Source of the DNA: a virus | Strand: one strand, 5' to 3' | Length of the DNA stretch: 35,912 bases | IMG/VR virus record: IMGVR_UViG_3300049491_000143 | Coordinates: 1 to 35,912 of that record | Shown: piece after piece, positions 754 to 23,619 of the stretch | How the letters are laid out: each line of letters starts with the position of its first letter | Numbering within the stretch: the stretch's first letter is position 1 | Position numbers and translations under genes: made by a program | Notes under the pieces: generated by a model | What the model saw: only the letters and a program-made list of their open reading frames with translations | What the model was told of the DNA's origin: nothing | Databases searched by the model: none

Positions 754-1031
754 ACGACCGTACCGAAAGACTGCCCCCAGCCGCCCGGATGTACACACAA
801 CACGACGGATATGTACGAGAGCGCATCCCGGTTCCGACGTTGCCGTGCCCTCTCAGCCTCCTCCAAGAGATTGAGGCCATCCTCCAGAGCGACTTTCGCC
901 TTGCAGTTCCGCCGTGGGACGCCGTAGGCATCGCCCTGGATCAAGTCCAGGCTCTGCTTGCCAAAGAGAAGGAGCCAGGGGGTAGACTAGCCCCGTGCAT
1001 CCCGTCGCCTCTGCCGTTCAATCTGTTCTAG
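750..1031 (+). CDS. Hypothetical protein, 93 aa
   Basis: The ATG overlaps the stop of the small terminase gene (ATGA at 750-753), which supports translational coupling. The 93-residue product has a central amphipathic helix (LLQEIEAILQSDFRLAVP, then DAVGIALDQVQALLAKEKE) and a Pro-rich C-terminus. No signal peptide, membrane segment or catalytic motif is visible. Its last 37 nt overlap the start of the endolysin gene in another frame, and the leaderless promoter of that gene (TAGACT at 983-988) lies inside it. The C-terminal tail may therefore be constrained mainly by that promoter. I do not recognise the family. Confidence 0.55.
   Translation: MNDRTERLPPAARMYTQHDGYVRERIPVPTLPCPLSLLQEIEAILQSDFRLAVPPWDAVGIALDQVQALLAKEKEPGGRLAPCIPSPLPFNLF
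983..988 (+). promoter_or_regulatory. Leaderless -10 element for the endolysin
   Basis: TAGACT is followed by exactly 6 nt and then the GTG at 995. A possible -35, TTGCCA, lies at 958-963 with a 19 nt spacer. There is no Shine-Dalgarno at a usable distance, and an in-frame TAG inside the hexamer rules out an upstream start. Confidence 0.6.
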
Positions 1032-1789
1032 AGCCCGAAGCGGGCTATGTTGAGACTCCGGTCAACGTCACGAAGTACTCCACGGACCTAGACGCCTACG
1101 AGAACCTCTCAGGGACCAGGATTCCCCGCCAAGGCTCCCCTTGGTGCGGGACATTCATTGACTGGGGGTTCTGGAAGGCACAGGCACAGGCCGCTTTGCT
1201 GTATCGGAACTTCGGAACGTCCGCCGCAGCCCGGAAGTACATTGCCGCAGGGCGGTTCCACACCACGAGCCAGCCGGGAGACCTCGCTTTCAAGGCCATT
1301 ACTGGTGCTGGACACATCGGTTTCGTCATTTCGGCCGAGGATTACCGCCGATTGACCGGGAAACCCCAAGCGCTCGGGTATGTGGCGACGATTGAGGGCA
1401 ACACAGCCTCAGGAAACACGGGAAGCCAGACAAACGGGGGGCAGGTTGCTATCCGACAGAGGCCCATCAGCTTCTGGACCGCCGAGGGGGGTTTCGGCTC
1501 TCCCGACTACGCTAAAGTCTCAGACACGCCGGTCCCAGGACCGCCCAAGCCACAGGAGATCAACGTGAAACTCGTCATCGGAAACGGCCCAGGCCGGGAC
1601 AAGGACCAGGCCAAGTCTCTGGAACAGAATGTGCGGGGAAACGGCTGGGCAACCTGCATTCTCACGGAGGCGGGGCTTGTCTGGGTGGCTGACCCCCAGG
1701 TTTCCGCCGTGTACGTCCAGGCGTACGGGTCTCCGATCACCGTTCCACAGGCAGCCATGGACAGAATCCCCCTTGTCGGCCAGGTCTGA
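995..1789 (+). CDS. Endolysin with CHAP-type (NlpC/P60-like) peptidase domain
   Basis: This 264-residue protein is predicted to cleave host peptidoglycan cross-bridges or stem peptides at the end of infection. The N-terminal domain shows the CHAP arrangement: catalytic Cys51 in GSPWCGTFIDW, a QPGDLAF strand near 93-99, His107 in GAGHIGFV, and an acidic/polar third position in TIEGNTASGN (Glu134/Asn136). Residues about 178-264 follow a Pro-rich linker (TPVPGPPKPQ) and probably form a separate wall-binding or targeting domain that I cannot name. The GTG start is fixed by an in-frame TAG just upstream and by the -10 hexamer 6 nt before it. The gene is followed by a GC-rich hairpin. The holin candidate is not adjacent but lies about 20 kb away on the other strand. 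Confidence 0.8.
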   Translation: MHPVASAVQSVLEPEAGYVETPVNVTKYSTDLDAYENLSGTRIPRQGSPWCGTFIDWGFWKAQAQAALLYRNFGTSAAARKYIAAGRFHTTSQPGDLAFKAITGAGHIGFVISAEDYRRLTGKPQALGYVATIEGNTASGNTGSQTNGGQVAIRQRPISFWTAEGGFGSPDYAKVSDTPVPGPPKPQEINVKLVIGNGPGRDKDQAKSLEQNVRGNGWATCILTEAGLVWVADPQVSAVYVQAYGSPITVPQAAMDRIPLVGQV

Positions 1790-1794
1790 CCCAG

Positions 1795-1813
1795 AGGGCG
1801 GACCGACCGCCCT
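1795..1813 (+). terminator. GC-rich hairpin after the endolysin
   Basis: A perfect 7-bp stem, AGGGCGG (1795-1801) and CCGCCCT (1807-1813), encloses the loop ACCGA. It begins 6 nt after the endolysin stop. There is no T tract, but actinobacterial terminators often lack one. A second small hairpin (CCGCCC-ACC-GGGCGG, 1834-1848) follows. Confidence 0.45.
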
Positions 1814-1865
1814 TGATGATCGAATGTGCTGTTCCGCCCACCGGGCGGGCTATGATGCGCATCCG

Positions 1866-1955
1866 ATGTTCCTCGCCTACCGATATGACACACCCCTGGG
1901 TCGTGCCTGCTTCCTTCCTGCGGAGGAGTACGAGCATTCGAGGTGGGGTCCGTAG
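1866..1955 (+). CDS. Possible small ORF, 29 aa
   Basis: The 183 nt between the endolysin and the next gene contain an ATG-initiated frame of 29 codons ending in TAG. The peptide begins MFLAYRYDTPLGRACF and ends with an acidic, aromatic tail (EEYEHSRWGP). A -10-like TATGAT lies at 1851-1856, but with 9 nt to the ATG rather than the 6 nt seen at other leaderless genes in this window, and there is no clear Shine-Dalgarno. It could be a real micro-gene or a chance frame between two promoters. No function can be assigned. Confidence 0.3.
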   Translation: MFLAYRYDTPLGRACFLPAEEYEHSRWGP

Positions 1956-1960
1956 TGCGC

Positions 1961-1966
1961 TAACAT
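1961..1966 (+). promoter_or_regulatory. Leaderless -10 element
   Basis: TAACAT is followed by 6 nt (TCAGCC) and the ATG at 1973. A -35-like TTCGAG at 1937-1942 gives an 18 nt spacer. No Shine-Dalgarno precedes the ATG. Confidence 0.6.
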
Positions 1967-1972
1967 TCAGCC

Positions 1973-2245
1973 ATGGCTAAGTCCGTCACTGTCGCTGTTT
2001 CCGCCGCCACCGTCACCCTCGCTCACACGGCGAAGGGCGGTGGTCTCTACCCAAACTCGGTCGTGGTGCATTCTCTGGCTGCGAATGCCCAGAACGTCTT
2101 TGTTGGCGACATCAATGTTTCCGCTGCCGTCGGGTTTCCTTTGACCCCCGGCACTTCGATTGCCCTGGATGTCGCTCCAGGCGAGAAGACCTACGTCTTC
2201 AGCGCAGCGACCGCTGATGTCCGAATCCTGACCATTTCGGACTGA
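1973..2245 (+). CDS. Small beta-rich virion protein (putative)
   Basis: This 90-residue protein is rich in Val, Ala, Thr and Ser and has almost no Cys or Trp. Alternating hydrophobic and small residues (SVTVAVSAATVTLAHTAK, then KTYVFSAATADVRILTISD) suggest a small beta-sandwich. This composition is common in phage head-decoration, tail-associated or fibre-accessory proteins. The gene starts from its own leaderless promoter, and its TGA shares one base with the ATG of the repeat-containing fibre-like gene (TGATG at 2243-2247), which supports joint expression with a structural partner. No specific family is recognised. Confidence 0.6.
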   Translation: MAKSVTVAVSAATVTLAHTAKGGGLYPNSVVVHSLAANAQNVFVGDINVSAAVGFPLTPGTSIALDVAPGEKTYVFSAATADVRILTISD

Positions 2246-3477: not shown

Positions 3478-3483
3478 TAGGAT
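3478..3483 (+). promoter_or_regulatory. Leaderless -10 element
   Basis: TAGGAT begins directly after the TAG stop of the fibre-like gene and is followed by 6 nt (AGGCGT) and the ATG at 3490. The -35 region is weak. Confidence 0.55.
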
Positions 3484-3489
3484 AGGCGT

Positions 3490-4278
3490 ATGGGAGTTCT
3501 TTACGATGCACGAGGAAACGAACTGCTCGGGCAGCTTGATGCAATCACCGGCTCAACGATCACGGATGCCCGGACCGCCACTGCCTCGCTGGCGGCGCTG
3601 AACGCTGAAGGCGTGGCAGACCTTAATGGCCACGAGTCGATGCTGGTCCACCTCCAGGCCGGGGCCGTGGTAACCGCTACGTTCGTGTTTGAGGGCACCG
3701 TGGACGGAACAAACTACTTCACCCTTCCAACCGTTGATACGGTCACCAACGCCAACATTGCCTCCTTTGCCTTGGCGGCAGCCACGGTCAGCCGGGTATT
3801 CTACGTCAAGTGCGCTGGATTCCGGCGTATTCGAGTCCGGTGCTCGGTCTACACGTCTGGGACCGTAACTGCCGCATTCCGTGCGTCAATCGCTGGTGTC
3901 CCCGCCCGTTACGAGCCCCCGTTCCCCGCCACTCTGTGGGTCACCGCCACGGCGGCTGCCAACACCATTGCTACGGCGACACTCCCAGCTGTTGCGGGCA
4001 TGTTCCACCATATCGTCCACATTGACCTCACCCGGAATGCTACGGCTGCCTTGGCCGGTACGGCGACTCTGATCCATACGACCACCAACCTGCCCGGATC
4101 GCCCGCATGGTCAGTCGGCAATGCCATTGCCGCTGGAGGCACGGAGAAGGATCTGAACGTTGACTTTGCCTTCCCGCTCCGGTCCTCGGTGGTGAACACG
4201 GCCACCACGGTCGTGATGCCCGCTGCCGGGGCCGCAGTCCTGAACCGTATCAACGTCGGCTACTTCCTAAGCCTCTGA
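3490..4278 (+). CDS. Beta-rich virion protein, 262 aa (putative)
   Basis: The protein is dominated by Ala, Thr and Val in alternating strands (for example AVVTATFVFEGTVDGTNYFT and NTIATATLPAVAGMFHHIVH). It has an N-terminal YDARGNELLGQ-type segment and no enzymatic motif. The middle (GFRRIRVRCSVYTSGTVTAAFRAS, near 113-136) resembles the beta-sandwich segments seen in many phage fibre, baseplate or decoration proteins. It sits between the fibre-like gene and the large terminase, starts from a leaderless promoter, and shares one base with the following gene (TGATG). A structural role is likely; the exact place in the virion cannot be told. Confidence 0.6.
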   Translation: MGVLYDARGNELLGQLDAITGSTITDARTATASLAALNAEGVADLNGHESMLVHLQAGAVVTATFVFEGTVDGTNYFTLPTVDTVTNANIASFALAAATVSRVFYVKCAGFRRIRVRCSVYTSGTVTAAFRASIAGVPARYEPPFPATLWVTATAAANTIATATLPAVAGMFHHIVHIDLTRNATAALAGTATLIHTTTNLPGSPAWSVGNAIAAGGTEKDLNVDFAFPLRSSVVNTATTVVMPAAGAAVLNRINVGYFLSL

Positions 4279-4526
4279 TGGACCTGATCGAGAAGCTCGT
4301 CTCGGACGACGGGGTGCAGCGGGTTTACCGGGTCTATGACGCTAAGGGCCGAAAGGTTGGAGTGCGCCAAGAGTTCATAGGAGAGCCTGGCTCAGCGGTC
4401 AAAGTCCGCCGAGCCCCTCTCCGACTTCTCCGCCGCCTACTCCGCCTCACCCCCATGAAGGCGGGTCTTGTCGGGGGTGCGTTGACGGAAGTTGTGTTTC
4501 AACTCTTCGTCAAAGGGCATCTATGA
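4278..4526 (+). CDS. Small basic protein, 82 aa
   Basis: The ATG shares one base with the previous stop, and the end overlaps the large terminase start by ATGA (4523-4526). Residues 1-40 are charged (MDLIEKLVSDDGVQRVYRVYD...). Residues 42-57 are strongly basic (KVRRAPLRLLRRLLRL), and the C-terminal ~23 residues (MKAGLVGGALTEVVFQLFVKG) are moderately hydrophobic and might form a membrane-associated helix. It could be a small membrane protein or a nucleic-acid-binding packaging accessory; I cannot decide. Its tight coupling to the terminase is the only functional clue. Confidence 0.55.
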   Translation: MDLIEKLVSDDGVQRVYRVYDAKGRKVGVRQEFIGEPGSAVKVRRAPLRLLRRLLRLTPMKAGLVGGALTEVVFQLFVKGHL

Positions 4527-6232: not shown

Positions 6233-6238
6233 ATCTGA

Positions 6239-6244
6239 TACGCT
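6239..6244 (+). promoter_or_regulatory. Leaderless -10 element
   Basis: TACGCT is followed by 7 nt and the ATG at 6252, one base more than at the other starts. It begins 7 nt after the terminase stop. No Shine-Dalgarno is present. Confidence 0.45.
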
Positions 6245-6251: not shown

Positions 6252-6557
6252 ATGGCAATCGCTCATGTAATCAACTTCAGGTCTGCGTTCGGGGACAAGC
6301 GTGCTGTCTCGGTCGTGACCACGTTCGACAACTCGTACCCCACGGGCGGGGAAGTCATCACGGCTGCGGACTTCGGTTTGTCCTACATCGAGAACATTCA
6401 GTGCTCGAATGCCAGCAACACGGCTGTTGACCGGGTAGTCACCTGGGACCGCACCAACTCCAAGCTCTTCGTCACGGTTATGTCGACTGGCGCTGAAGCC
6501 GCCAACGCATCTGACCAATCTGCCACCTCTGCCAACCTTCTAGTGATCGGACACTGA
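6252..6557 (+). CDS. Small virion protein, paralog A (putative)
   Basis: This 101-residue, Thr/Ser/Val-rich protein shares a motif with its immediate downstream neighbour: TTFDNSYPTGGEVITAADFGL here (in two halves around residues 24-44) against TITMDNSYLTGGELVAASDFGL there. Flanking strands (KRAVSVV, KLFVTVMSTGAE, LLVIG) suggest a compact beta-barrel. Small proteins with this DNSYPTGGE..-DFGL pattern occur beside head genes in other phages, which fits a decoration or minor structural role, though that is inference. It sits between the terminase and the portal and begins from a leaderless promoter. Confidence 0.65.
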   Translation: MAIAHVINFRSAFGDKRAVSVVTTFDNSYPTGGEVITAADFGLSYIENIQCSNASNTAVDRVVTWDRTNSKLFVTVMSTGAEAANASDQSATSANLLVIGH

Positions 6558-6561
6558 CACC

Positions 6562-6879
6562 ATGGCCGCTACCTTTGCAATCGGAAAGTCCAGCTCTGTC
6601 GAGAACCTCAAGGTTGTCGTTGCCACCATTACGATGGACAACTCATACCTGACTGGTGGTGAGCTTGTTGCCGCCTCGGACTTTGGTCTCCGTGGCATCT
6701 TCACGGTCATCTGTGGGGCTCCTCCTCAGGGCGGTTGGCTCCCGGCCTACAACCCGGTGGCGGGCACGATCAAGCTCTTCCAGAGCACGACTGGTGCACC
6801 CGCTGCTCTGGTTGAGGTTGCCAGCACCACCGATGTCTCGACCGCTGTTATCCCGGTTATTGTCCTCGGCTTCGCCTGA
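6562..6879 (+). CDS. Small virion protein, paralog B (putative)
   Basis: This 105-residue protein is a tandem paralog of the preceding gene, sharing the DNSY-TGGE-...-A-DFGL core near residues 28-47 and the same C-terminal strand pattern (VIPVIVLGFA). The ATG is 4 nt after the previous stop with no -10 hexamer at leaderless distance, so it is probably translated from the same mRNA. The rest of the sequence has diverged strongly, pointing to an old duplication. It is possibly a decoration or minor head protein that occupies a different site from paralog A. Its TGA shares a base with the next ATG. Confidence 0.65.
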   Translation: MAATFAIGKSSSVENLKVVVATITMDNSYLTGGELVAASDFGLRGIFTVICGAPPQGGWLPAYNPVAGTIKLFQSTTGAPAALVEVASTTDVSTAVIPVIVLGFA

Positions 6880-7292
6880 TGCCTATCCAGTATCGTCCTG
6901 GATTCACCTACGCCACCCGCAACAACGGTGTGTGCTCCATCTGTCACTGTAACCAGCGACCCCTCGATTCGTGTGACCCGAACGGGCCTCGTGAGGGCGT
7001 CGTGTCCCTTGGCATCTCGATCGAGATGGAGGGCGACTTTGACATCTGCGAGCACTGCGCCGTCGAGATTGGGCAGGCTGTGGGTCTCGTGAAGGAGGCT
7101 CTTCTTGAAGATGCGTTGTCTGATGTCGCCCGACTAGAGCAGGTCCAGATCGACTTGGAAGATCGCTTGACTGCCCGAGAGCAGGCTGTCATGATCCTGA
7201 CTAAAGAGCTGGCCAATGCTGTGTGGGACCGCCAGCCTGCCGAGGTACTGCCTTGGGTGGCCGAAGAGCCGTCATTCGCTGATGTTGCCTGA
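6879..7292 (+). CDS. Zinc-binding and coiled-coil protein, 137 aa
   Basis: The N-terminal half has a probable zinc site: CSICHC (Cys19, Cys22, Cys24) with Cys32, then CEHC (Cys57, Cys60). The C-terminal half (about 70-120) is a charged, Leu-rich helix that could form a coiled coil (EDALSDVARLEQVQIDLEDR). There is no enzymatic motif. The gene starts in a TGATG overlap with the previous virion-like gene, and its end overlaps the start of a small membrane-protein gene by 11 nt. It could be a minor structural or assembly protein, or a regulator expressed in the late unit. The family is not recognised. Confidence 0.6.
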   Translation: MPIQYRPGFTYATRNNGVCSICHCNQRPLDSCDPNGPREGVVSLGISIEMEGDFDICEHCAVEIGQAVGLVKEALLEDALSDVARLEQVQIDLEDRLTAREQAVMILTKELANAVWDRQPAEVLPWVAEEPSFADVA

Positions 7293-7509
7293 CATCGTTC
7301 TGGGTGCTGTCTGCCTATCCCTGCTCGCTTTCCACTTCTTCAGCGCCCATCAGTGGGCTGAAGAGCGACGCTTTCTGCTGAATCGGGGGATGGCAAAGAC
7401 CCCCGGCGAGGTAGTGATGCTGCAACGTGGGACAGCACCCGACAGCCCCCTGACGGCTGAGGTCAAGGAGAAGAAGGTTCCGGTTCGGCCAATGCCTCTC
7501 GGCCTGTAG
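7282..7509 (+). CDS. Small membrane protein, 75 aa
   Basis: I place the start at ATG 7282 (MLPDIVLGAVCLSLLAFHFF), not at an in-frame ATG 66 nt upstream, because it keeps the overlap with the preceding zinc-protein gene to 11 nt and gives a clean N-terminal transmembrane helix at residues 3-20. The helix is followed by a charged segment (AEERRFLLNRG) and a Pro/Lys-rich tail, so an N-out, C-in single-pass topology is plausible. Its TAG stop is the first triplet of the portal gene's -10 hexamer. It might be an accessory lysis or envelope-interacting protein; no family is recognised. Confidence 0.6.
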   Translation: MLPDIVLGAVCLSLLAFHFFSAHQWAEERRFLLNRGMAKTPGEVVMLQRGTAPDSPLTAEVKEKKVPVRPMPLGL

Positions 7510-7512
7510 TCT
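7507..7512 (+). promoter_or_regulatory. Leaderless -10 element for the portal gene
   Basis: TAGTCT, whose first three bases are the TAG stop of the preceding gene, is followed by 6 nt (AGGACT) and ATG 7519. TTCGGC at 7484-7489 is a weak -35 candidate with a 17 nt spacer. Confidence 0.6.
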
Positions 7513-9512: not shown

Positions 9513-10337
9513 ATGCCCACCTCATTCCTTTCCCAGGTGCAAGCCGATTTCGTTTCTCGGGGCTGGGACCCACAAGACCTCACCACATTCCGCATGGAAC
9601 TGGAGAGTGAGGGTGCGGGTACCGCAGATGCAGGTGCCCCACCAGCCGCTCCTGAGGCCCCGACCGCTTCGGCAGCCCCTGATGCCGGTGCTGACCCGTT
9701 CGAGTCAGGCGCCGAGTCATTCCCCCGGGCCTACGTCGAGAAACTGCGCCAAGAGGCCGCTGATCGTCGCACTGCCGCCAAGCCCTACGAGGAGGCATTC
9801 TCCGCCTACGGGCAGGAGGAGCGGGCCGTGTGGCTCCAGATTGCCAAGCTGACCGTGGAGGACCCGGCAGCCGCCAAGGAAGTCATGGACTCTCTCTTCA
9901 GCTCAATGCTGGCTGATGAAGCACCTGAGGAACCAACTTCGGAGGATGATCGGCCGCTGACTCGCAAGGAGCTGGAGCAGTGGTCAAAGGACCAAGAAGC
10001 CGCCAAGCAGGAGGCCGCTGCGGTGTCCGCCGTCGAGAAGGAGGCTGAGGCGCTCGGGTACAAGCAGGGGGACTGGAACTACTTTGCTCTTCTGAAGCGG
10101 GCCATGTCTGACCACGGAGGCGACCTCGCAGCCGCCCACGCAGCATTCGAGGCGGACAAGCAGAAGGTCATTGACGAGTACGTCGCAGGGAAGCAGGAAA
10201 GTGGTGCGAAGTGGCCAGCCGGAATGCCGGGCGGCGCAGCCCCGGCTGACGCAACTGGCGGGGCACCAAGGACATTCGACCAGGCCAAGGCATCAGCTGT
10301 TGCCCGGATGCGAGCGGCTGGGATTGGGAAGCCGTGA
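9513..10337 (+). CDS. Scaffolding protein (putative)
   Basis: This 274-residue protein is acidic, Ala/Glu-rich and almost entirely predicted helical or disordered, as expected of a scaffold that guides capsid assembly and is then removed. It has an Ala/Pro-rich region (about 35-65), long charged helices (AYVEKLRQEAADRRTAAKPY, then LTRKELEQWSKDQEAAKQEA) and a C-terminal basic helix (FDQAKASAVARMRAAGIGKP) that could contact the capsid protein. It is placed directly between portal and major capsid genes, the standard scaffold position. Unlike most gene clusters here, it has a conventional promoter and a leader with a purine-rich ribosome site. The next gene overlaps by GTGA. Confidence 0.82.
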   Translation: MPTSFLSQVQADFVSRGWDPQDLTTFRMELESEGAGTADAGAPPAAPEAPTASAAPDAGADPFESGAESFPRAYVEKLRQEAADRRTAAKPYEEAFSAYGQEERAVWLQIAKLTVEDPAAAKEVMDSLFSSMLADEAPEEPTSEDDRPLTRKELEQWSKDQEAAKQEAAAVSAVEKEAEALGYKQGDWNYFALLKRAMSDHGGDLAAAHAAFEADKQKVIDEYVAGKQESGAKWPAGMPGGAAPADATGGAPRTFDQAKASAVARMRAAGIGKP

Positions 10338-10576: not shown

Positions 10577-10579
10577 TTG

Positions 10580-10588
10580 TGTTATGCT
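10580..10588 (+). promoter_or_regulatory. Extended -10 promoter for the major capsid gene
   Basis: TGTTATGCT contains an extended -10 (TG-N-TATGCT; hexamer at 10583-10588) with no good -35. Transcription would start near 10595 and give a leader of about 110 nt, much longer than elsewhere in the window. Confidence 0.5.
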
Positions 10589-10689
10589 TTGATTGCCAAC
10601 TCAGGCGGGTCCTGATTTAGCCGAACACCCTGGTGGTTGAAGGCAGTTGCTGGCAGAAGATCGTCGCTTCTATTTCTCTCCTACACACC

Positions 10690-10698
10690 AGAAAGGTG
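10690..10698 (+). promoter_or_regulatory. Shine-Dalgarno of the major capsid gene
   Basis: AGAAAGGTG lies about 7 nt before ATG 10706 and decides that start over an in-frame ATG at 10637. It overlaps a small hairpin, ACACC (10685-10689), loop AGAAA, GGTGT (10695-10699), which could modulate access or protect the mRNA. The rest of the 10589-10684 leader shows no other feature I can support. Confidence 0.65.
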
Positions 10699-10705
10699 TT
10701 CCCAG

Positions 10706-11905
10706 ATGTCTCTTACCCTCACCACCGCTGATGCGGCCCTCAAAGAAGATTACCAGCCTGCCATTCGTGAGCAGTTGAGCGAAGCCTTCATGCTGCTCTC
10801 GCAAGTCGAGAAGAACACCACGGACATCGAAGGCCGTCGGGCCGTCCTGTCCCTCCACGTCAGCCGCAACTCGGGTGTCGGCTCCCGCCCGGATGGTGGC
10901 ACCTTGCCTGCCGCTGGTGAGCAGGGCTACGCTGAAGAGCGGGTTCCGGTCAAGTATCTCTACGGCCGCATCAAGGTCTCCGGCCCGACCATCGCCGCCA
11001 TGAAGTCCGACCAGGGCTCGTTCACTCGTGCAGTCGATTCGGAGTCCAAGGGCGTCGTGAAGGACCTCAAGCGTGACGTGAACCGTCAGTTGTTCGGCAC
11101 TACGGACGGCGTGATCGCCACTGCGGGCACGACCACGGCCACTACGGTTGTGCAGTTGCTTGCGGCCACCACGCTTGTCCAGATGCGCCAGTTCGAGATC
11201 AACATGCGTATTGATATCGGAACCGTCGCTGCCCCGACCACGATTGCTTCGGACCGCAAGATCACGGCCATCAACCGTACCAACAAGACGATCACGATTG
11301 ACGGCGCCGCCGTGACTACGGTCTCCGGCACCCATTTCATCTTCCGTCAAGGTGCGGGCGGGACGGGCATCGAACTGACTGGCCTTCGGTCAATCGTCTC
11401 GGCCACGGGCACGCTGTTCAACGTGAACCCGGCCACGCAACCCACCTGGGTTTCCTACATCAACACGGTTGGTGGCACGCCAAACGATCTGATGTTTGAA
11501 ACGGCCATGGACGAGATCTACTCGGAGTGCGGGGATACCCCCAATCTCTTGGTCTCGACCGCTGGTGTCAGCCGTGGCTACTCGGCGTCTCTGACATCAC
11601 AAAAGCGCTTCACCAACACGCTGGAAATGAAGGGTGGCTTCAAGGCGCTGTCGATTGCGACTCCGCTGGGCGAGCTGGCCTTCACTTGGGACCGTGACTG
11701 CCCACTCACCAACGTGTTTGTCCTGAACACCAAGAACCTCATCAACTTCGAGATGGCGGACTGGGAGTTCATGGATCGGGACGGTTCGGTTCTTAGCCGG
11801 GTCTCCGGCGAGGATGCCTACGAAGCGGTGCTGTACTCGTACCGTGAGTTGGCTACCGATCAGCGCTCGGCGCATGGCCTCATCAGCTCGGTTACCGAGA
11901 GCTGA
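10706..11905 (+). CDS. Major capsid protein (HK97 fold, putative)
   Basis: This 399-residue protein should build the icosahedral shell. The start is set at ATG 10706 by the strong AGAAAGGTG site. The N-terminus (LTTADAALKEDYQPAIREQL) and the following ...QVEKNTTDIEGRRAVLSLHV resemble the N-arm and E-loop region of HK97-type proteins of short-tailed phages. Residues about 60-130 (PVKYLYGRIKVSGPTIAAMK, then VKDLKRDVNRQLFG) carry the typical spine-helix motif. A beta-rich segment near 180-215 (ITAINRTNKTITIDGAAV) may be an inserted domain. The C-terminal part holds P-domain and A-domain strands. It follows scaffold and is closed by a strong hairpin. There is no sign of an N-terminal protease-cleaved delta domain. 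Confidence 0.85.
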   Translation: MSLTLTTADAALKEDYQPAIREQLSEAFMLLSQVEKNTTDIEGRRAVLSLHVSRNSGVGSRPDGGTLPAAGEQGYAEERVPVKYLYGRIKVSGPTIAAMKSDQGSFTRAVDSESKGVVKDLKRDVNRQLFGTTDGVIATAGTTTATTVVQLLAATTLVQMRQFEINMRIDIGTVAAPTTIASDRKITAINRTNKTITIDGAAVTTVSGTHFIFRQGAGGTGIELTGLRSIVSATGTLFNVNPATQPTWVSYINTVGGTPNDLMFETAMDEIYSECGDTPNLLVSTAGVSRGYSASLTSQKRFTNTLEMKGGFKALSIATPLGELAFTWDRDCPLTNVFVLNTKNLINFEMADWEFMDRDGSVLSRVSGEDAYEAVLYSYRELATDQRSAHGLISSVTES

Positions 11906-11927
11906 CTTGACCTCCTGCAAGTCAATG

Positions 11928-11955
11928 AAGAGCCCCGGCTTCGGTCGGGGCTCTT
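11928..11955 (+). terminator. Strong terminator after the capsid gene
   Basis: A perfect 10-bp stem, AAGAGCCCCG (11928-11937) and CGGGGCTCTT (11946-11955), encloses an 8-nt loop. It lies 22 nt past the capsid stop. Its A/T-ended stem reads on both strands. The next promoter -10 begins only 4 nt later. Confidence 0.85.
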
Positions 11956-11958
11956 CGC

Positions 11959-11964
11959 TATACT
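11959..11964 (+). promoter_or_regulatory. Leaderless -10 element after the capsid terminator
   Basis: TATACT is followed by 6 nt (GACCTC) and ATG 11971. This is the closest match to a consensus -10 in the set. Any -35 would fall inside the terminator stem. Confidence 0.7.
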
Positions 11965-11970: not shown

Positions 11971-12384
11971 ATGTCATTGCTAGCTCCTGAGTACGTTGAC
12001 GGTCGGAAGCTTTGGGTAGACCCAGAAGTGCAAGAGATCATCGACCTCATGCACAACGGGGACCCAACCCTCGGGTGGGAAGGAGATCCTCGCCTTGCCC
12101 TGTACCGGACAAAGACCGGGTGGGAGCTTGACCGCATGGGGGAGGACGGCTATCTCTATACAATCGCTCGGTCCCGTAAAGACTTGAAGCTGGACCGGTC
12201 ATTGATCGTCCACCTTGTCGCCCATGACACCCGCAGGAAATCAGCGCTCAAGCAGCACGACGAGCTGGCCAAGCTCAAGGAGACCGCCGAGGCAGCATCC
12301 GATGCCGCCCACGCTGAGAAGGTGGCGGAGCGACTTGAGAAAGTGTATTGGGGTGCGAAGCGGGACATAGGCCACCACTACTAA
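11971..12384 (+). CDS. Conserved-looking head-proximal protein, 137 aa
   Basis: This 137-residue protein has an N-terminal segment LLAPEYVDGRKLWVDPEVQEI, a central LYRTKTGWELDRMGEDGYLY and a C-terminal charged coiled coil (about 90-130: RRKSALKQHDELAKLKETAE). The pattern is typical of small proteins encoded directly after the capsid gene in actinobacteriophages, which suggests a connector or virion accessory role. I have no motif that decides between them. It is transcribed from a leaderless promoter right after the capsid terminator. Confidence 0.6.
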   Translation: MSLLAPEYVDGRKLWVDPEVQEIIDLMHNGDPTLGWEGDPRLALYRTKTGWELDRMGEDGYLYTIARSRKDLKLDRSLIVHLVAHDTRRKSALKQHDELAKLKETAEAASDAAHAEKVAERLEKVYWGAKRDIGHHY

Positions 12385-12388: not shown

Positions 12389-12394
12389 TAGACT
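12389..12394 (+). promoter_or_regulatory. Leaderless -10 element
   Basis: TAGACT is followed by 6 nt (GACTCA) and ATG 12401. It begins 5 nt after the previous TAA. It is identical to the hexamers at 983 and 18123. Confidence 0.6.
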
Positions 12395-12400: not shown

Positions 12401-13027
12401 ATGGCCACCACTCTCACGACCCTCCGGTCTCAAGTCCTGCACCGGCTGGCCCTCCCATCTGATGACCAGATGGTCCCCACAGCGGATCTTGACTCGTCTA
12501 TCAACTCCGGTCTGCGGGCAATGGCCGCTGACTATGACTGGCCTTGGCTTCAAGTTGAGGGGTCCCTCGTCACGGTGGCCAATCAGAGCACGTATGCTAC
12601 GTCGGGCCTCACCGGGTGGGTGCGCACCCTTTGGATACAGGATGACGCTCGGGACCTAGAGTACCGTCAGCGGAGAGAGGTCACCCGGTACAAACTCAAC
12701 ACTGGACCTCGGGCGTTCATCTACACAATCTCGGCGGACCAGATTGTCCTGGCGCCCACCCCCACCGAGGTCCGCACCCTCACGCACGCATACATTCGGA
12801 CTGAGCCCCCCCTCGTCAACGGGTCTGACGCCATCGTCTGCCCCGACCACTTCTCGGACCTGGCAGTGCTCTACGCAACTATTGAGGAGGCCACTCGCTT
12901 GAAGGACACCGCTCTGCGAAACCTACTCATCTCAGACAAGAATGAGTGGATTGGTAGGTTGCGTGACAATGTTCGGCGCTCCTCAGCGACCGTCCGCCTG
13001 CGCTCCCGCAATGACTGGGCAATGTAG
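12401..13027 (+). CDS. Head-tail adaptor/connector protein (putative)
   Basis: This 208-residue protein resembles adaptor proteins that bind below the portal in short-tailed phages (the P22 gp4 or gp6-like class). The clues are an N-terminal helical segment (TLRSQVLHRLALPSDDQMVP) with SSINSGLRAMAADYDWPWLQ (about 43-62), a beta-rich centre (RTLWIQDDARDLEYRQRREV, then FIYTISADQIVLAPTP) and two C-terminal helices (SDLAVLYATIEEATRLKD). This is the order expected for that fold. It is located between the capsid-linked gene and the hub-like gene. Its TAG shares a base with the GTG of the next gene (TAGTG). Confidence 0.7.
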   Translation: MATTLTTLRSQVLHRLALPSDDQMVPTADLDSSINSGLRAMAADYDWPWLQVEGSLVTVANQSTYATSGLTGWVRTLWIQDDARDLEYRQRREVTRYKLNTGPRAFIYTISADQIVLAPTPTEVRTLTHAYIRTEPPLVNGSDAIVCPDHFSDLAVLYATIEEATRLKDTALRNLLISDKNEWIGRLRDNVRRSSATVRLRSRNDWAM

Positions 13028-14562
13028 TGGCTCGGGCAAAGATTGTCTATGAGGACTTCAAGGGGGAGTACGGTGCCACCTCCGGTGCCAAAGCCCCTCC
13101 CGGCACGTTCAAGGCCACGAACATGCAGGTCTACAAGACCGGGCTGCTCGGACCACGGGCTGGTCTGAAGGCAATGGCGTACACCTCAGTCCCGGCAGCA
13201 GCCGTGAAGGGGATGGGGTGGCGAGGAACAACGGCCAAGGACCTCTGGGTGGCTTTCGGAACGGACGTTCAACGCAACGATACCCTGACACCGGGGTCAG
13301 CATTCGTTGACTTTGCCACGAACTTGGCCAGCACTCCTACCCACCCCGTCCAGGGTGTTGAGTATGGAACACTTAACTCCTTCATCACGAACTTTGATGA
13401 CAAGTCCTACATCCTGAACCACACAACTCCGACGCTGACAGCCATTGCAACTGCTCCGGGAGGAACATGCGTCTCCCTCTACGGGGAACGAATGATGGTT
13501 GCCTCCACCACAGCGCAGCCGACCAGGGTGTACTTCTCGGCTGCCGGAGACTTCACATCTTGGCCAGCGGGAAACTTCTTTGACCTGCCAGCCTCGTCAG
13601 GGGCTGTGGCTGCCATGTTCCAGCAGCGCAATGGTCTCACAATCCTTACCCTCAATGGGGAGTGGTGGGTACTCACCGGGGTGCCTGGGACATCCAACGC
13701 ATTCTTGCGGAGGGTCGGCGCTGGTGGTGTTCACCCGTGGATCATGAACCCAAATGCGGCTGCAAACCTTGGATCGGACGAGGTTGCGTTCGTCGGGATT
13801 CGGTCTGACTACCCGAGCAAGTTCAATGGGTCATACGTTGCTGACGACATGCGTCATCTTGAGATCCACGGCGGCGTGGCTTACACGGGGGACACAGACA
13901 TCAAGGTCCTGCGGGGAGGGCGGGCCGAGGAAGTCGTCATCATCTTCCCAGGTACTGCCCCGGTCTCGGGGGCGCTCTACACCAACGGGGTGTGGACGTT
14001 GATGCAGTTCGGACAGAACCTCACCGTCTACGCAACCAGCGACGGGCAGGGGCGCATCATGTTCACCGACGGCACATCGACGGCCAAGTTCTACACCTGG
14101 ACGCTGGACCTGGACCGTCCCGCCTTTCTGACGGACACTCTTCAGACTAGGGGTGATGGGGTGAATAGCCCCTACACGGACTATCCAGTGGCTGCATCCG
14201 TTCTGTTCCCCGAGTTCTGGGCACAGGATGGGTCAGAGGTTCGGGTGCGCTCTGTTGAGATTGAGACGACGAAGTGGGATACATCAGGTGCCGGAACCTC
14301 GCAGATTAATGTCGGGTACTCACTCGACGTGACATCCATTGACCGCTATAACCAGGCTGCAACATCTGTCGTATCTCAGGCCCTGTCCGAGAACGGCAAC
14401 CTCTACAATACGACAGGTGTCCGCTCCCGAAACGTCTTCAGGTTCGGCACGAACGTTCGCTATGCGGGAGGTTTCAGTGTCGGCCTTTCAACCATTCAGG
14501 GCCTCGCTATCGAGCGCATCATTGTCGAGTACGAAACTCGTGAGGAAGTTCCGAGGACCTGA
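13027..14562 (+). CDS. Tail hub/nozzle-like beta-propeller protein (putative)
   Basis: This 511-residue, mostly beta protein has repeated blades such as GERMMVASTTAQPTRVYFSA, NGLTILTLNGEWWVLTG and DGQGRIMFTDGTSTAKFYTW. This is the pattern of propeller-containing hub or plug proteins in short-tailed phages (comparable in position to P22 gp10). It starts with GTG in a TAGTG overlap with the adaptor gene, which fits a gene pair building consecutive rings of the tail. Residues 1-60 (FKGEYGATSGAKAPPGTFKA...) are typical of the N-terminal ring-contact region. It ends in a TGATG overlap with the first of three fibre-like paralogs. No enzyme motif is visible. Confidence 0.65.
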   Translation: MARAKIVYEDFKGEYGATSGAKAPPGTFKATNMQVYKTGLLGPRAGLKAMAYTSVPAAAVKGMGWRGTTAKDLWVAFGTDVQRNDTLTPGSAFVDFATNLASTPTHPVQGVEYGTLNSFITNFDDKSYILNHTTPTLTAIATAPGGTCVSLYGERMMVASTTAQPTRVYFSAAGDFTSWPAGNFFDLPASSGAVAAMFQQRNGLTILTLNGEWWVLTGVPGTSNAFLRRVGAGGVHPWIMNPNAAANLGSDEVAFVGIRSDYPSKFNGSYVADDMRHLEIHGGVAYTGDTDIKVLRGGRAEEVVIIFPGTAPVSGALYTNGVWTLMQFGQNLTVYATSDGQGRIMFTDGTSTAKFYTWTLDLDRPAFLTDTLQTRGDGVNSPYTDYPVAASVLFPEFWAQDGSEVRVRSVEIETTKWDTSGAGTSQINVGYSLDVTSIDRYNQAATSVVSQALSENGNLYNTTGVRSRNVFRFGTNVRYAGGFSVGLSTIQGLAIERIIVEYETREEVPRT

Positions 14563-15146
14563 TGGCTTCTCTCCTATTCCAGTACCCACACCCGTGGTGC
14601 GCCCTGCTGGACGCATGGGATCGCAACCCTGAGCTTGCAGAGCACCTCATTCAAGAGAATGATCGTGCACTGGAGGACTACCTCGGCGGGCTCGTTGCTG
14701 GTTCTGGGTCTTCTCTTCTCGCTGAAACCATCTACAACCCGGGGGCTAGGGTCAACTACTTCCCCACAGGGGAGGTGGCGGGGGTGTGTCTTGACACCAC
14801 CAACCTCAAAGTCACATTCACCCCGCCTGCCTCGGGGACTGTGTACATCTACCTTGAGGCCGGGGCCAACGGGCTCTTGGGGGACTCTCGTGAGTCGTGG
14901 GTGATCTTAGACAACCCGGGGTCCGTAGGGGCTGGTGCGGCGATTCTCGGGGAGAGGTATCAAGTTGCGGCGGCCACCGGCATTAATCGTTACACCTCAA
15001 GGCACAAGATCACAGGCCTGACTCCTGGAACACCGATCACCGTGTACTGGGGCCACGCCATGAACTATGTTGACTTCTCGCCTTTCCCCTTCACGGCTGC
15101 GGGGGGGAATGTCGGTCCTGCCATCATGACTGTCAGGTCCGAGTAA
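14562..15146 (+). CDS. Fibre/appendage-like protein, mosaic paralog 1
   Basis: This 194-residue protein is the first of three tandem paralogs that alternate near-identical and divergent segments. All three share an N-terminal helix (AEHLIQENDRALEDYLGGL, about 26-44), a central KVTFTPPASGTVYI strand pair (about 83-96) and a C-terminal RYTSRHKITGLTPGTPITVY block (about 144-163). The start LLFQYPHPW is also shared. The variable parts between them (about 45-80, 97-140, 168-190) differ most, as expected where partners or receptors are met. The helix may be an attachment handle to the hub. It is linked to both neighbours by 1-nt stop/start overlaps. A virion appendage role is inferred from position and architecture. 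Confidence 0.65.
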   Translation: MASLLFQYPHPWCALLDAWDRNPELAEHLIQENDRALEDYLGGLVAGSGSSLLAETIYNPGARVNYFPTGEVAGVCLDTTNLKVTFTPPASGTVYIYLEAGANGLLGDSRESWVILDNPGSVGAGAAILGERYQVAAATGINRYTSRHKITGLTPGTPITVYWGHAMNYVDFSPFPFTAAGGNVGPAIMTVRSE

Positions 15147-16239
15147 TGGCCGAGCTACTGTTCCAGTACCCCCATAAGTGGGTGGATCTTCTGCCGTTGA
15201 TAAGGACAAACCCTGAGCTTGCAGAGCACCTCATTCAAGAGAATGATCGTGCACTGGAGGACTACCTCGGCGGGCTCGTGCTGGTTGGGTCAACTTCTAC
15301 CTTACTGTCCGAGTCTGTGTACAACCCGGCCAGCCAGGCGACAATCTTCTGTGCTAGCGAGGCAACGGGTAAACCTGTCGACGGAACCAACCTCAAAGTC
15401 ACATTCACCCCGCCTGCCTCGGGGACTGTGTACATTTCCCTCTCAGCGGGGGGTTTCGGTCTGACTGGGGACTCCCTCATTCAGTGGATGATCCTGGACT
15501 CCAATCAATCCGTGGGGGCTGGTGCGACGATTCTCGGATCGGCCATCTGGATTGCGGAGGCCACCGGCATTAATCGTTACACCTCAAGGCACAAGATCAC
15601 AGGCCTGACTCCTGGAACACCGATCACCGTGTACTGGGGCCACGCCATGAACTACAGCGATGCAACCCCGGCAGCCGGTACCGCATACGGAGGAACAGTT
15701 GGGCCTGCGGTGATGACGGTTAAGACAGAATAATGGCCGAGCTACTGTTCCAGTACCCCCATAAGTGGTCTACCATTGTTCCTCTTCTGCTGGAGGACAG
15801 GAGGAAAGCAGAGCACCTCATTCAAGAGAATGATCGTGCACTGGAGGACTACCTCGGCGGGCTGGGTGCGGGAGGAGTCTCGACTTCTGTCATTGCTGAG
15901 ACCATCTATCACCCCGTTAGTATCTCCGGTGGTGGCCCTGTCTCTGAGACAGCAGGAGTCCCTGTCGACGGAACCAACCTCAAAGTCACATTCACCCCGC
16001 CTGCCTCGGGGACTGTGTACATCACACTGGAGGGCTGTGCACGGGGGCTCACAGGATTCGAACAGATTTCCTGGATGATCCTGGACTCCAATCAATCCGT
16101 GGGGGCTGGTGCGACGATTCTCGGATCGGCCATCTGGATTGCGGAGGCGGATGGATATGACCGTTACACCTCAAGGCACAAGATCACAGGCCTGACTCCT
16201 GGAACACCGATCACCGTGTACTGGGGCCACGCCATGAAC
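14637..16239 (+). repeat. Triplicated perfect blocks of 56, 50 and 78 bp in three tandem genes
   Basis: Three blocks are identical at the DNA level in all three paralogs. The 56-bp block is at 14637-14692, 15221-15276 and 15808-15863. The 50-bp block is at 14799-14848, 15386-15435 and 15973-16022. The 78-bp block is at 14988-15065, 15575-15652 and 16162-16239. Identity includes silent third positions, while the segments between them are diverged, so recent recombination or gene conversion is more likely than protein-level selection alone. Confidence 0.92.
15146..15733 (+). CDS. Fibre/appendage-like protein, mosaic paralog 2
   Basis: This 195-residue protein is the second of the three paralogs, starting in TAATG with one base shared. 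It matches paralog 1 through the shared blocks including NRYTSRHKITGLTPGTP, and paralog 3 through its first ~13 codons (MAELLFQYPHKW) and a long segment WMILDSNQSVGAGATILGSA (about 112-131). So it is a hybrid of its two neighbours. The divergent parts (for example STLLSESVYNPASQATIFCA) are unique. The protein probably forms trimers or mixed oligomers with its paralogs, but this is not visible in the sequence. Confidence 0.65.
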   Translation: MAELLFQYPHKWVDLLPLIRTNPELAEHLIQENDRALEDYLGGLVLVGSTSTLLSESVYNPASQATIFCASEATGKPVDGTNLKVTFTPPASGTVYISLSAGGFGLTGDSLIQWMILDSNQSVGAGATILGSAIWIAEATGINRYTSRHKITGLTPGTPITVYWGHAMNYSDATPAAGTAYGGTVGPAVMTVKTE

Positions 16240-16320
16240 CTGAGTGACGCAACTCCCTACCCCGAGACCCTCTTCGGTGAGGAGTATGGCGCAGCTATTA
16301 TGGTTGTGCGGACCGAGTAA
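15733..16320 (+). CDS. Fibre/appendage-like protein, mosaic paralog 3
   Basis: This 195-residue protein is the third tandem paralog. It shares the N-terminal 38 bases with paralog 2 and the helix, central strand and C-terminal blocks with both others. It has unique segments around residues 45-78 (VIAETIYHPVSISGGGPVSE) and 175-195, and replaces the TGINRY of the others with DGYDRY. The previous stop TAA shares its last base with this ATG. Its own TAA forms the first triplet of the next -10 hexamer (TAACAT). Function is inferred as for the other two; three copies in a row suggest either a hetero-oligomeric appendage or receptor-range diversification. Confidence 0.65.
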   Translation: MAELLFQYPHKWSTIVPLLLEDRRKAEHLIQENDRALEDYLGGLGAGGVSTSVIAETIYHPVSISGGGPVSETAGVPVDGTNLKVTFTPPASGTVYITLEGCARGLTGFEQISWMILDSNQSVGAGATILGSAIWIAEADGYDRYTSRHKITGLTPGTPITVYWGHAMNLSDATPYPETLFGEEYGAAIMVVRTE

Positions 16321-16323
16321 CAT
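16318..16323 (+). promoter_or_regulatory. Leaderless -10 element
   Basis: TAACAT starts with the TAA stop of paralog 3 and is followed by 6 nt (GGCCGT) and ATG 16330. Confidence 0.6.
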
Positions 16324-16869: not shown

Positions 16870-18125
16870 TGGCTGCCACCCCGCTGACCCCCGCTGGTCT
16901 CGACGTTGAGCCCGTCCCGAACGATCCTAACGGCCCCAATCGGCCCGTACAGGGGTTTGACCCAGGAGCACAGCTTCGGCCGTCCAACAACAATGCGTCC
17001 CAGGGCCAGGATGCTCAACGTGCACTACTCGCCGCCATGGCAACGCAGGGGGCTGGTGCCAAGGACCAGTTCTCCCAGGCTCAAAGCCTTGCTGCACAAC
17101 AGCAGCAGGCTGCTGTCCAGGCAGCTGCCGCACGGGCTGAGGCGATCGGTGCTCCGTCGGCATTCAATGACCAACTTCAGGGGCAGGTGACGGCCGCCTA
17201 CGGGGATGCGGGGCTGTCCCTAGCCGCCCGGCACCAGGCCAACCAGAAGGAGGGCGCTGCTGTCCAAGGGGCCACCGGTGATTATATGAGCCAACTTAGG
17301 GCCGCAATGCCTGTCATTCAATCGAAGCAGAACATTGCCGTGCAACAGATCCTGGCGGACGCTGCTGACAAGAAGGCGCAGCGGGACTATCAACAGAAGG
17401 ACCTGGCGTACAACAACAAACGGCTCGACGCAGAGATCGCTAAACTCAACGGCACGGCTGGCTCGGCAGGCCTGACTGATGCTGAAGTTTCTCGGTACAC
17501 GAGCCCACTCAAGTCAGATGCTGCTGCCTCGTTCCTTGGGGTCAGCCCGGCAATCGTCCGTGCTCGCCAAGAAAGCCCCGATTACTCCACCGGAAGGGCA
17601 GCCCTGGCGGAGGCGCAGAAGAGCGGTATGAGCCTGGACGAGGTGGCAGGGCTCCTGAAGTCCACAACCTCTGAGGCTGTCGGCGCCGACGGGGTCTTGA
17701 CGACCCAGCCCCTGGACCCGGAGGTCGTGAAGTTGTTGCTGGCGACTTATGCACCCACCTTCCGCACTGCACAGGACGTGACCGATTCCAAGAACCGGGA
17801 CCTGGCTCGGAAGAAGGCGGAGCACGAGGCCGTCTCTGGTACAGGGACCCCCACCCCTGCGCCAGCCCCCGAGGAGAACGCAGCAACTCGTCTTGTGGCG
17901 GAGGGCGTTGCAGCGGAGAAGGTCAAGAAGGAGGCTGCGGCTGCTGCGGCTGCGGCATTGACCAAGGCCGAGGGCCAGTCCCAGAGACAGGCGGAGATCA
18001 AACGCCTTATTCGGGCCGCAAAGCTGGAGAATGCTCGGAAGAAGGCGGAGGCCAAAGGCACTGCGTCGTCCGACATTTCAATAGCCCAGGAAGCGGGCCG
18101 AAAGCGGGCGGGAAAGTCCAAGTAG
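16869..18125 (+). CDS. Internal virion/ejection protein 2 (putative)
   Basis: This 418-residue protein is Ala/Gln/Lys-rich and almost entirely helical. A Gln/Ala tract lies near residues 73-90 (LAAQQQQAAVQAAAARAEAI). Long charged helices follow (QKDLAYNNKRLDAEIAKLNG), and the C-terminus (about 340-418) is a Lys/Ala/Glu coiled coil (AAEKVKKEAAAAAAAALTKA). Such composition is typical of ejection proteins that unfold to pass the portal. There are no Cys, no catalytic motif and no signal peptide. It shares one base with the previous stop (TGATG). Its own TAG stop is the first triplet of the next -10 hexamer. Confidence 0.62.
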   Translation: MAATPLTPAGLDVEPVPNDPNGPNRPVQGFDPGAQLRPSNNNASQGQDAQRALLAAMATQGAGAKDQFSQAQSLAAQQQQAAVQAAAARAEAIGAPSAFNDQLQGQVTAAYGDAGLSLAARHQANQKEGAAVQGATGDYMSQLRAAMPVIQSKQNIAVQQILADAADKKAQRDYQQKDLAYNNKRLDAEIAKLNGTAGSAGLTDAEVSRYTSPLKSDAAASFLGVSPAIVRARQESPDYSTGRAALAEAQKSGMSLDEVAGLLKSTTSEAVGADGVLTTQPLDPEVVKLLLATYAPTFRTAQDVTDSKNRDLARKKAEHEAVSGTGTPTPAPAPEENAATRLVAEGVAAEKVKKEAAAAAAAALTKAEGQSQRQAEIKRLIRAAKLENARKKAEAKGTASSDISIAQEAGRKRAGKSK

Positions 18126-18128
18126 ACT
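18123..18128 (+). promoter_or_regulatory. Leaderless -10 element for the largest gene
   Basis: TAGACT begins with the TAG stop of the preceding gene and is followed by 6 nt (GAGGGG) and ATG 18135. The spacer is purine-rich but too close to the ATG to act as a Shine-Dalgarno. Confidence 0.6.
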
Positions 18129-22334: not shown

Positions 22335-22557
22335 GATTGTGCGTCAGCCCAGAAACGAAGGCCTGGTACTTGGCGTCGGTCACTGCGGCGTTAGGTGTCA
22401 CGAGTTGGCGGATGATGAGAGACACGATTAGGGGGAGCGCCGTCTTCCAGTCCGGGCTCGTCGCCACGGCATTCTGGACGGCCAAGAGGACCGAGATGGC
22501 CAGGCCGACAAGGGCGGCGGGCTCACGAGCAATCAGAGACTTGAGGTATGCCTTCAT
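22297..22557 (-). CDS. Holin-like membrane protein (putative)
   Basis: This 86-residue protein has two hydrophobic segments: about 14-32 (AALVGLAISVLLAVQNAVA) and about 40-53 (ALPLIVSLIIRQLV), joined by a short polar loop, with the second running into the RQLVTPNA-type motif common in small phage holins or holin-like proteins. It has a basic N-terminus and an acidic tail (EVQEPLSGD). It is the last leftward gene and starts in an ATGA overlap with the metallophosphoesterase gene. Its end overlaps the convergent giant virion gene by 38 nt. The endolysin is 20 kb away, so the assignment rests on topology rather than on a classical adjacent cassette. Confidence 0.6.
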   Translation of the reverse strand: MKAYLKSLIAREPAALVGLAISVLLAVQNAVATSPDWKTALPLIVSLIIRQLVTPNAAVTDAKYQAFVSGLTHNPNVEVQEPLSGD

Positions 22558-23402
22558 GCTTCCAGCCTACCACCCGTGAACTCACGGAGGCTGACCCCCT
22601 CGTACCTGCGGCAGAGGTAGTCAAGCGAAACAAACATTGGGCTGTAGCTGCCGTCAATGACTTCGTGGCAGACGATGACCCCCCTCCAGTGGGCGTTCCC
22701 CTGCGGTCCGAGGTAGTCCTCGCTGTGAAGGTACGCCGAGCCACAGATGAGGGCATGCTGGCTCCTTCCGGCCACGAACCTCACGGCGTAGTCAAGGGTT
22801 TGCTGGTGACCCATTGTGAACGAGTGTCCCAAGGTCTTCAGCCGGGTCAGCGCCTGCCCTGCGAACGGTCGGCCGGTCATTGGATTAGCCCAGTAGTGGC
22901 TGTAGGCAACCCCGTCAATGAAGACAGGCTCCAAGAACCCGTGCACCTTCCACCCGTGCTTGGCATAGTTCAGGTCATCCAGCGAGAGCAGACCGTCGAG
23001 CTGCGCATCATTCTCGGTCGCACGGGTGATCCGGGCCTCATGATTGCCCAGCAAGATGTGCCTCTCCGGCCACCAGTTCTTCTTCTGGTTGCGGGAGATG
23101 CGAGCATTCTCAGCAATCAGGGGGGCATTCAGCATGTCAAAGCCCTTGTTGGCAGCCGCAATATCCACGAGGTAGCGGCGACCCTCCATGGCCTTCTTCC
23201 CTTTGTCATACGAAGACAAGGAAGGCATATCCGCATGGTCCCCAAGGTGAATGATCTTCACATTCGGGCGACCCCGGAAGTGCTCAACGATGTACCGGCC
23301 AATCCAGTTGAGGTGGTCCGTTGGCACCCCCTCCTTGCATTGGGTGTCCGGGATCACAATGTGTGTGGCCAGCTCATCTGTCAACAGCGTGCACCCTCTC
23401 AT
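22554..23402 (-). CDS. Calcineurin-like metallophosphoesterase
   Basis: This 282-residue protein has the metal-binding motifs of the superfamily: IPDTQ (Asp19), IHLGDHAD (Asp55, Asp58) and LLGNHEAR (Asn120, His121). Downstream His residues are in SHYWANP and MGHQQTLD. The first motif has Gln where most members have His, and the last has GHQQ instead of GHxH, so the metal site may differ. Phage members of this family may act on nucleic acids or nucleotides; the substrate here is unknown. The ATG at 23402 overlaps the upstream small membrane gene by 29 nt, and the end is coupled to the holin gene by ATGA. A TTG six codons in is a possible alternative start. The place between two membrane-protein genes is odd for a replication enzyme. 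Confidence 0.78.
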   Translation of the reverse strand: MRGCTLLTDELATHIVIPDTQCKEGVPTDHLNWIGRYIVEHFRGRPNVKIIHLGDHADMPSLSSYDKGKKAMEGRRYLVDIAAANKGFDMLNAPLIAENARISRNQKKNWWPERHILLGNHEARITRATENDAQLDGLLSLDDLNYAKHGWKVHGFLEPVFIDGVAYSHYWANPMTGRPFAGQALTRLKTLGHSFTMGHQQTLDYAVRFVAGRSQHALICGSAYLHSEDYLGPQGNAHWRGVIVCHEVIDGSYSPMFVSLDYLCRRYEGVSLREFTGGRLEA

Positions 23403-23607
23403 GTTCGACCTGCCAGTTCAGCAGACTGTCTGTCTTTCGTTCGTGGCGATCTTGGCGATCCAGCATGTCTTCCAGCATCTTGCACACATCCCCCCTGCCG
23501 TTCCCTTTCACAATCTTGCGAGTAGTGCGGGATGAGAGAAGGGTGTATGCGGTCCCGATGGCCACAGGAACCGTGGTGATTAGGGCGACGGCTACTGATG
23601 AATCCAT
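23374..23607 (-). CDS. Small single-pass membrane protein with coiled coil
   Basis: This 77-residue protein has an N-terminal hydrophobic helix (about 4-24: SVAVALITTVPVAIGTAYTL), a basic stretch (SSRTTRKIVKGNGRG), then a charged coiled coil (CKMLEDMLDRQDRHERKTDS). This looks like small phage proteins that sit beside lysis or tail genes. Its ATG is preceded at 6 nt by TAGTAT, whose TAG is the stop of the primase gene, so the gene probably starts a separate leaderless transcript. With the next two genes it forms a three-gene cassette ending in the holin candidate, which makes a lysis accessory role plausible but unproven. Confidence 0.6.
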   Translation of the reverse strand: MDSSVAVALITTVPVAIGTAYTLLSSRTTRKIVKGNGRGDVCKMLEDMLDRQDRHERKTDSLLNWQVEHERVHAVDR

Positions 23608-23613
23608 ACATAG

Positions 23614-23619
23614 ATACTA
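23614..23619 (-). promoter_or_regulatory. Leaderless -10 element on the minus strand
   Basis: Read on the minus strand, TAGTAT (first triplet equals the TAG stop of the primase gene) is followed by 6 nt (CTATGT) and ATG 23607. A -35 candidate TGGACT lies at 23642-23637 with a 17 nt spacer. It is the only such promoter I find on this strand. Confidence 0.65.

Follow-up and report, generated by a model that had tools for sequence, protein, structure and literature searches.

TANNNT elements beside virion gene starts in an uncultured virus: candidate leaderless promoters of the host sigma-A type

The IMG/VR virus entry IMGVR_UViG_3300049491_000143, analysed here whole and referred to as the window, comprises 35912 bases at 60% GC, in which the virion genes (terminase, portal, capsid, tail) are read rightward and the replication genes (primase, SNF2-type helicase, PD-(D/E)XK nuclease and DNA polymerase A) are read leftward. 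Open reading frames (ORFs) are truncated at both ends and the record is therefore probably incomplete; no terminal repeats were found in its 35912 bases. The customary picture of phage late genes is one of long operons with one or a few promoters and Shine-Dalgarno-led genes. The subject of this analysis is a TANNNT hexamer that stands beside the start codons of many of the virion genes, at a nearly constant distance.

The original prediction had placed this hexamer 6 nucleotides (nt) before nine start codons and 7 nt before that at 6252, and both hexamer and spacing proved correct at all ten sites. One further site had been overlooked, at the GTG of position 220, bringing the sites with a gap of exactly 6 nt to nine plus-strand starts and the minus-strand start at 23607 (Table 1). 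In four cases (7519, 16330, 18135 and 23607) the hexamer opens with the TAG or TAA that terminates the gene before it, such that twelve bases would serve as stop, -10 and spacer at once.

Table 1. Putative promoter hexamers and other features (window positions unless a relative is named)
Feature	Position	Strand	Remarks
-10 TATCCT	208..213	+	6 nt to GTG 220; terminase small subunit-like
-10 TAGACT	983..988	+	6 nt to GTG 995; CHAP-like, Pfam match sub-threshold
-10 TAACAT	1961..1966	+	6 nt to ATG 1973; G002 ortholog has TACCCT and 6 nt
-10 TAGGAT	3478..3483	+	6 nt to ATG 3490; adjoins preceding upstream stop TAG
-10 TACGCT, extended TGA	6239..6244	+	7 nt to ATG 6252; orthologs mostly Shine-Dalgarno-led or motif-less
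-10 TAGTCT	7507..7512	+	6 nt to portal ATG 7519; TAG is upstream gene's stop; conserved at relatives' portal starts
-10 TATACT	11959..11964	+	6 nt to ATG 11971; downstream of capsid-gene terminator-like hairpin
-10 TAGACT	12389..12394	+	6 nt to ATG 12401 (PHROG tail protein)
-10 TAACAT	16318..16323	+	6 nt to ATG 16330; TAA is upstream stop
-10 TAGACT	18123..18128	+	6 nt to ATG 18135 (virion-region gene, 1399 amino acids); TAG is upstream stop
-10 TAGTAT	23614..23619	-	6 nt to ATG 23607 (77 amino acids); TAG is stop of 23617-26097; G003 ortholog has TACCTT and 7 nt
Scaffold-position gene	9513..10337	+	between portal and capsid; function by position only; no TANNNT; weak Shine-Dalgarno
Predicted extended -10 TGTTATGCT	10580..10588	+	major capsid gene, leader of about 110 nt
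Shine-Dalgarno AGGTG	10694..10698	+	major capsid gene, start 10706
Major capsid protein gene	10706..11905	+	Shine-Dalgarno-led, no TANNNT at start
Terminator-like hairpin	11927..11956	+	behind capsid gene; -27.4 kcal/mol, z -5.7, no T-run
Coupled-looking starts (example)	13027..16320	+	13027, 14562, 15146 and 15733 each with 1-nt overlap (TAGTG, TGATG, TAATG)
Inverted repeat ATACCCNNNNGGGTAT	L102:4565-4580, 7004-7019, 11648-11663, 12093-12108, 15298-15313		cover -10 and first start-codon bases

Genes were called with a home-made program that uses codon usage only and is blind to upstream sequence. It missed 4278 and 6879, putting a single start at 7002, and both were taken from the ORF list instead; the motif-bearing starts were chosen by this program independently. 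Among the 23 complete plus-strand genes, ten (those beginning at 220, 995, 1973, 3490, 6252, 7519, 11971, 12401, 16330 and 18135) carry TANNNT at 5-8 nt, against 0.28 expected (p=8e-14), with nine offsets of 6, one of 7 and none of 4, 5, 8 or 9. When the enrichment test attached to the original prediction was run against shuffles and relatives, placement at starts was enriched over the former and in the latter, but sheer abundance of the motif did not rise above shuffles: in the window, bare TANNNTN6RTG occurs 14 times against 10.8 expected, a number matched in 16 of 100 shuffles. Nine of the ten plus-strand occurrences of the pattern within 1-23530 nevertheless coincide with called starts, in a region holding 658 RTG triplets (p=8e-13). 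The signal is one of position at starts, not of motif abundance. Shine-Dalgarno sequences of at least 5 nt precede only one of the 23 plus-strand genes, that of the major capsid protein, versus 5 of the 16 minus-strand genes.

The hexamer also bears the marks of a promoter. Across the window and its relatives, 75 non-redundant sites were collected that had been selected for TA...T only, with other TANNNT sites serving as controls. An extended -10 TG stands one base ahead of the hexamer in 37 of the 75, versus 8% of controls (p=4e-20), and an extra T occurs two bases before the extended TG in 51% of the sites. Hexamer position 5 is A or C in 71 of 75, versus 47% of controls (p=2e-18), and in all 11 sites of the window (p=3e-4). 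No conserved -35 was found among the aligned sites. The composition of the hexamer tracks GC content, being TACAAT or TATAAT at 43-45%, TAGACT or TAGGAT near 55-60% and TACCCT at 65-68%, while T1, A2 and T6 stay invariant. Start codons that carry the motif comprise 65 ATG, 15 GTG and no TTG, the last of which is penalised by the caller.

Relatives were gathered through portal and terminase searches and amount to about 30 distinct viral loci of 43-69% GC; for L120 and phage PA6, start calls drew on homology-seeded training or annotated starts. The placement is enriched at the starts of many of these loci, mostly with a gap of 6, with 7 in G002 and partly with 5 in G006, and gaps of 5, 6, 7 and 8 are all in use. 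The window lies at the high end with 10 of 23 starts, together with L113 (8 of 20) and L120 (8 of 23). The gene-by-gene pattern is kept at roughly 30-60% protein identity: 18 of 25 distinct portal sequences have the motif under mechanical start choice, and 22 of 25 when the first in-frame ATG is taken. It is also frequent at the starts of the orthologs of 11971, 12401, 16330 and 18135.

The capsid region behaves otherwise. TANNNT occurs at none of 19 distinct capsid starts, most of which have a Shine-Dalgarno sequence, and at none of 19 scaffold-position starts, where most relatives are likewise Shine-Dalgarno-led. An extended -10 (TGNTANNNT) does occur in 14 of the 21 upstream regions tested, at a distance of 106-170 nt from the capsid start, and in five of the 14 is accompanied by a good -35 match; its location so far upstream indicates that the element does not depend on a start codon. 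Because the extended -10 features were not selected for, and because the same element recurs well ahead of the capsid gene with its leader, the evidence supports a sigma-A promoter element and not a translation signal. The long capsid-gene leader itself (10577-10705 in the window, and its equivalents) is present in most relatives and has no Rfam match in the window.

Beyond the ten hexamer-bearing starts, the plus-strand genes fall into few classes. Ten begin within the previous gene, overlapping it by 1 or 4 nt (2245, 4278, 4523, 6879, 10334, 13027, 14562, 15146, 15733 and 16869), one (6562) begins 4 nt behind it, and two (9513 and the major capsid gene at 10706) have intergenic leaders, so that about half of the genes look translationally coupled. 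The hairpin behind the capsid gene, which separates that gene from the putative promoter at 11959, is by far the strongest in the window; comparable hairpins stand ahead of hexamers in relatives L117, L126, L132, L135 and L004, and no hairpin of such strength was found at the other virion junctions of the window. Scans of the window for T-run terminators and for classical -35/-10 promoters gave no more hits than in shuffles. The suggestion that the virion genes form many short units holds as far as the roughly ten candidate promoters go, but does not fit a single clear terminator and a set of genes of which about half look coupled; taken together, these make it probable that the transcription units are nested and not separate.

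Considering placement, extended -10 features and relatives together, the best explanation, and one we hold with considerable confidence, is that TANNNT is the -10 of host sigma-A-type promoters of the extended -10 class, for which a -35 would not be required. RNA would begin on the A or G of the start codon and yield a leaderless mRNA; about ten such internal promoters would read the plus-strand virion region, and genes abutting their predecessor would be reached by translational coupling. A conventional leader bearing a Shine-Dalgarno sequence would serve the major capsid gene and, in relatives, its immediate predecessor. From the DNA we infer the leaderless transcripts and their exact 5′ ends, the use of host polymerase, leaderless translation and coupling. 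Several observations weigh against this explanation. In the window the extended TGN is present only at 6252 (1 of 11 sites), and the other sites lean on relatives, whose mutual relatedness means that counts across loci are not independent. The motif is missing from 3 of 25 portal starts and from most orthologs of 6252, and the host's identity is itself a deduction. Moreover, a finding that speaks in its favour, namely that among starts with a non-negative gap 70 have TANNNT only, 50 a Shine-Dalgarno sequence of at least 5 nt only and none both, is partly mechanical, as the two motifs require the same bases.

An unlikely variant keeps the promoters real but sets the 5′ ends slightly off the codon, with leaders of 1-5 nt, or makes them minor internal promoters within polycistronic read-through. 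In Corynebacterium glutamicum, whose mRNAs are 33% leaderless and many of whose promoters are of the extended -10 type, TAnnnT lies 3-11 nt from the 5′ end (PMC3890552), and the variety of gaps among relatives would suit short leaders, just as the lone clear terminator and the coupled-looking starts would suit read-through. The codon distance nevertheless appears to be under selection, with a gap of 6 in 47 of the 75 non-redundant sites and of 6 or 7 in 66, and the motif starts lack a Shine-Dalgarno sequence. Much less probable is a start-associated DNA or RNA motif recognised by some regulator of phage or host origin, after the manner of the Start-Associated Sequences (SAS) of cluster K mycobacteriophages, and not a promoter at all. 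Its position is indeed fixed beside the start codon, and five virion genes of relative G002 (L102) have the element at their starts within a perfect 16-bp inverted repeat; but the three fixed bases are those of a -10 while the remaining ones follow GC content, capsid genes have an extended -10 more than 100 nt upstream, and the palindrome is absent from the window. Even so, the promoters themselves might be under the control of a regulator. That chance or start calling produced the pattern, through TAG and TAA stops and AT bias near gene ends, is scarcely credible: the raw count is unenriched and four hexamers do contain an upstream stop, but the caller ignores upstream sequence, nine plus-strand starts share an offset of exactly 6, no stop falls in the hexamer at seven sites, and independent columns and the relatives point the same way. 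Chance as such is ruled out by the two positional statistics given above.

As for the inverted repeat of G002, it may act as an operator for promoters of leaderless mRNAs. A palindromic operator was considered for the window as well and was rejected, being present in that relative but absent from the window. In Microbacterium phage Shocker (L101), the start elements at 550 and 3582 have TACCCT, and at 3582 an inverted TAGGGTA precedes the element, resembling the G002 palindrome.

It is conceivable, although we would sooner doubt it than assert it, that the mode of translation is a conserved trait of each virion gene, with portal and tail genes leaderless behind an extended -10 beside the codon and capsid and scaffold genes given a long leader and a Shine-Dalgarno sequence. 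Such a partition would help to set subunit ratios or would exploit ribosomes suited to leaderless mRNAs late in infection.

Among cultured phages, Shocker and Arthrobacter phage Jasmine have a similar gene order and a capsid protein about 32% identical. In Shocker, 6 of 38 plus-strand starts have TANNNT at a distance of 5-8 nt (p=8e-7); Jasmine, unlike the window, has no enrichment (2 of 30 versus 1.5 expected). Shine-Dalgarno sequences of at least 5 nt precede 19 of 38 starts in Shocker and 11 of 30 in Jasmine. At annotated starts the motif was counted in Smarties (3 of 44), PA6 (3 of 25, plus strand), phiC31 (1 of 51), DS1 (1 of 23) and Montesquieu (1 of 31). From these cultured actinophage counts, start-codon promoters would thus not be confined to the window, which stands at the high end. 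Leaderless mRNAs are reportedly made from many genes of the Thermus phages P23-45 and phiYS40. P23-45, which employs phage-encoded RNA polymerases (PMC10770324), differs from the window in its Thermus host and in virion-side genes without TANNNT enrichment (0 of 27); with 3 of 25 minus-strand starts it makes a weak positive control.

The closest likeness is to the leaderless sigma-A promoters of Actinobacteria (PMC3890552; M. tuberculosis, PMC3898074; survey, PMC3160421), which share TANNNT about 10 bp before ATG or GTG, a weak or absent -35, an extended -10 and no Shine-Dalgarno sequence; in the survey, Zheng et al. (2011) took TANNNT near -12 as leaderless (PMC3160421). The window differs from those genomes in being viral, in concentrating the element in its virion half, in its proportion (10 of 23 genes versus a reported 19-33% or so) and in a gene-by-gene choice conserved between relatives. 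The SAS and ESAS of cluster K mycobacteriophages (PMC3203893, PMC12699233) are also short conserved elements just ahead of many phage starts, but the SAS is a fixed 13-mer, GGGATAGGAGCCC, located mostly outside structural genes, whereas here a degenerate -10 lies within them; the 13-mer is in none of the 11 start regions of the window. A literature search that left most subscription papers outside its reach found no work on leaderless expression of late genes in actinophages. What appears here is a known mechanism used with unusual consistency, in which nearly every unfused virion gene appears to have its own start-codon promoter. If so, about ten such promoters plus coupled genes would form a compact alternative to long late operons, a testable claim on how viruses of Actinobacteria set subunit amounts, and would supply a rule for calling starts in uncultured actinophages as well as a pointer to the host group of the record.

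The actinobacterial host read from the leaderless starts is also suggested by other evidence. Relatives of the capsid protein in the phage collection, at about 26-32% identity, belong only to Arthrobacter, Microbacterium, Cellulosimicrobium or uncultured phages, and WhiB, an actinobacterial regulator, is encoded in 3 of 13 related virus records tested and not in the window; Lsr2 was not found. Among 397 genomes sampled from the phylum to which an Aeromicrobium genome belongs, one had a strong capsid match, and a distant portal lay on that contig as well; a scan of genome contigs with a large-terminase alignment was too broad for naming a host. An actinobacterial host is likely, of a genus that cannot be named.

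Searches of the window returned no tRNA and no Rfam match; its first 20 kb had no close DNA match in the phage collection, and the tail gene 13027-14562, used as query, retrieved no viral relatives. Directly behind that gene lie three tandem paralogs, 14562, 15146 and 15733 (14562-16320), with 1-nt overlaps and 69% identity between neighbours, of which 14562, the only one searched, had no PHROG match. A second, smaller set of paralogs occupies 6252-6879, an adjacent pair of small genes 31% identical, whose homolog is instead directly behind the capsid gene in several relatives. At the convergent end (22548-23607), a plus-strand frame (22548-23525) overlaps a minus-strand frame (22554-23402); since the latter is conserved in G003 at 57% identity, the plus-strand frame is probably not a gene.

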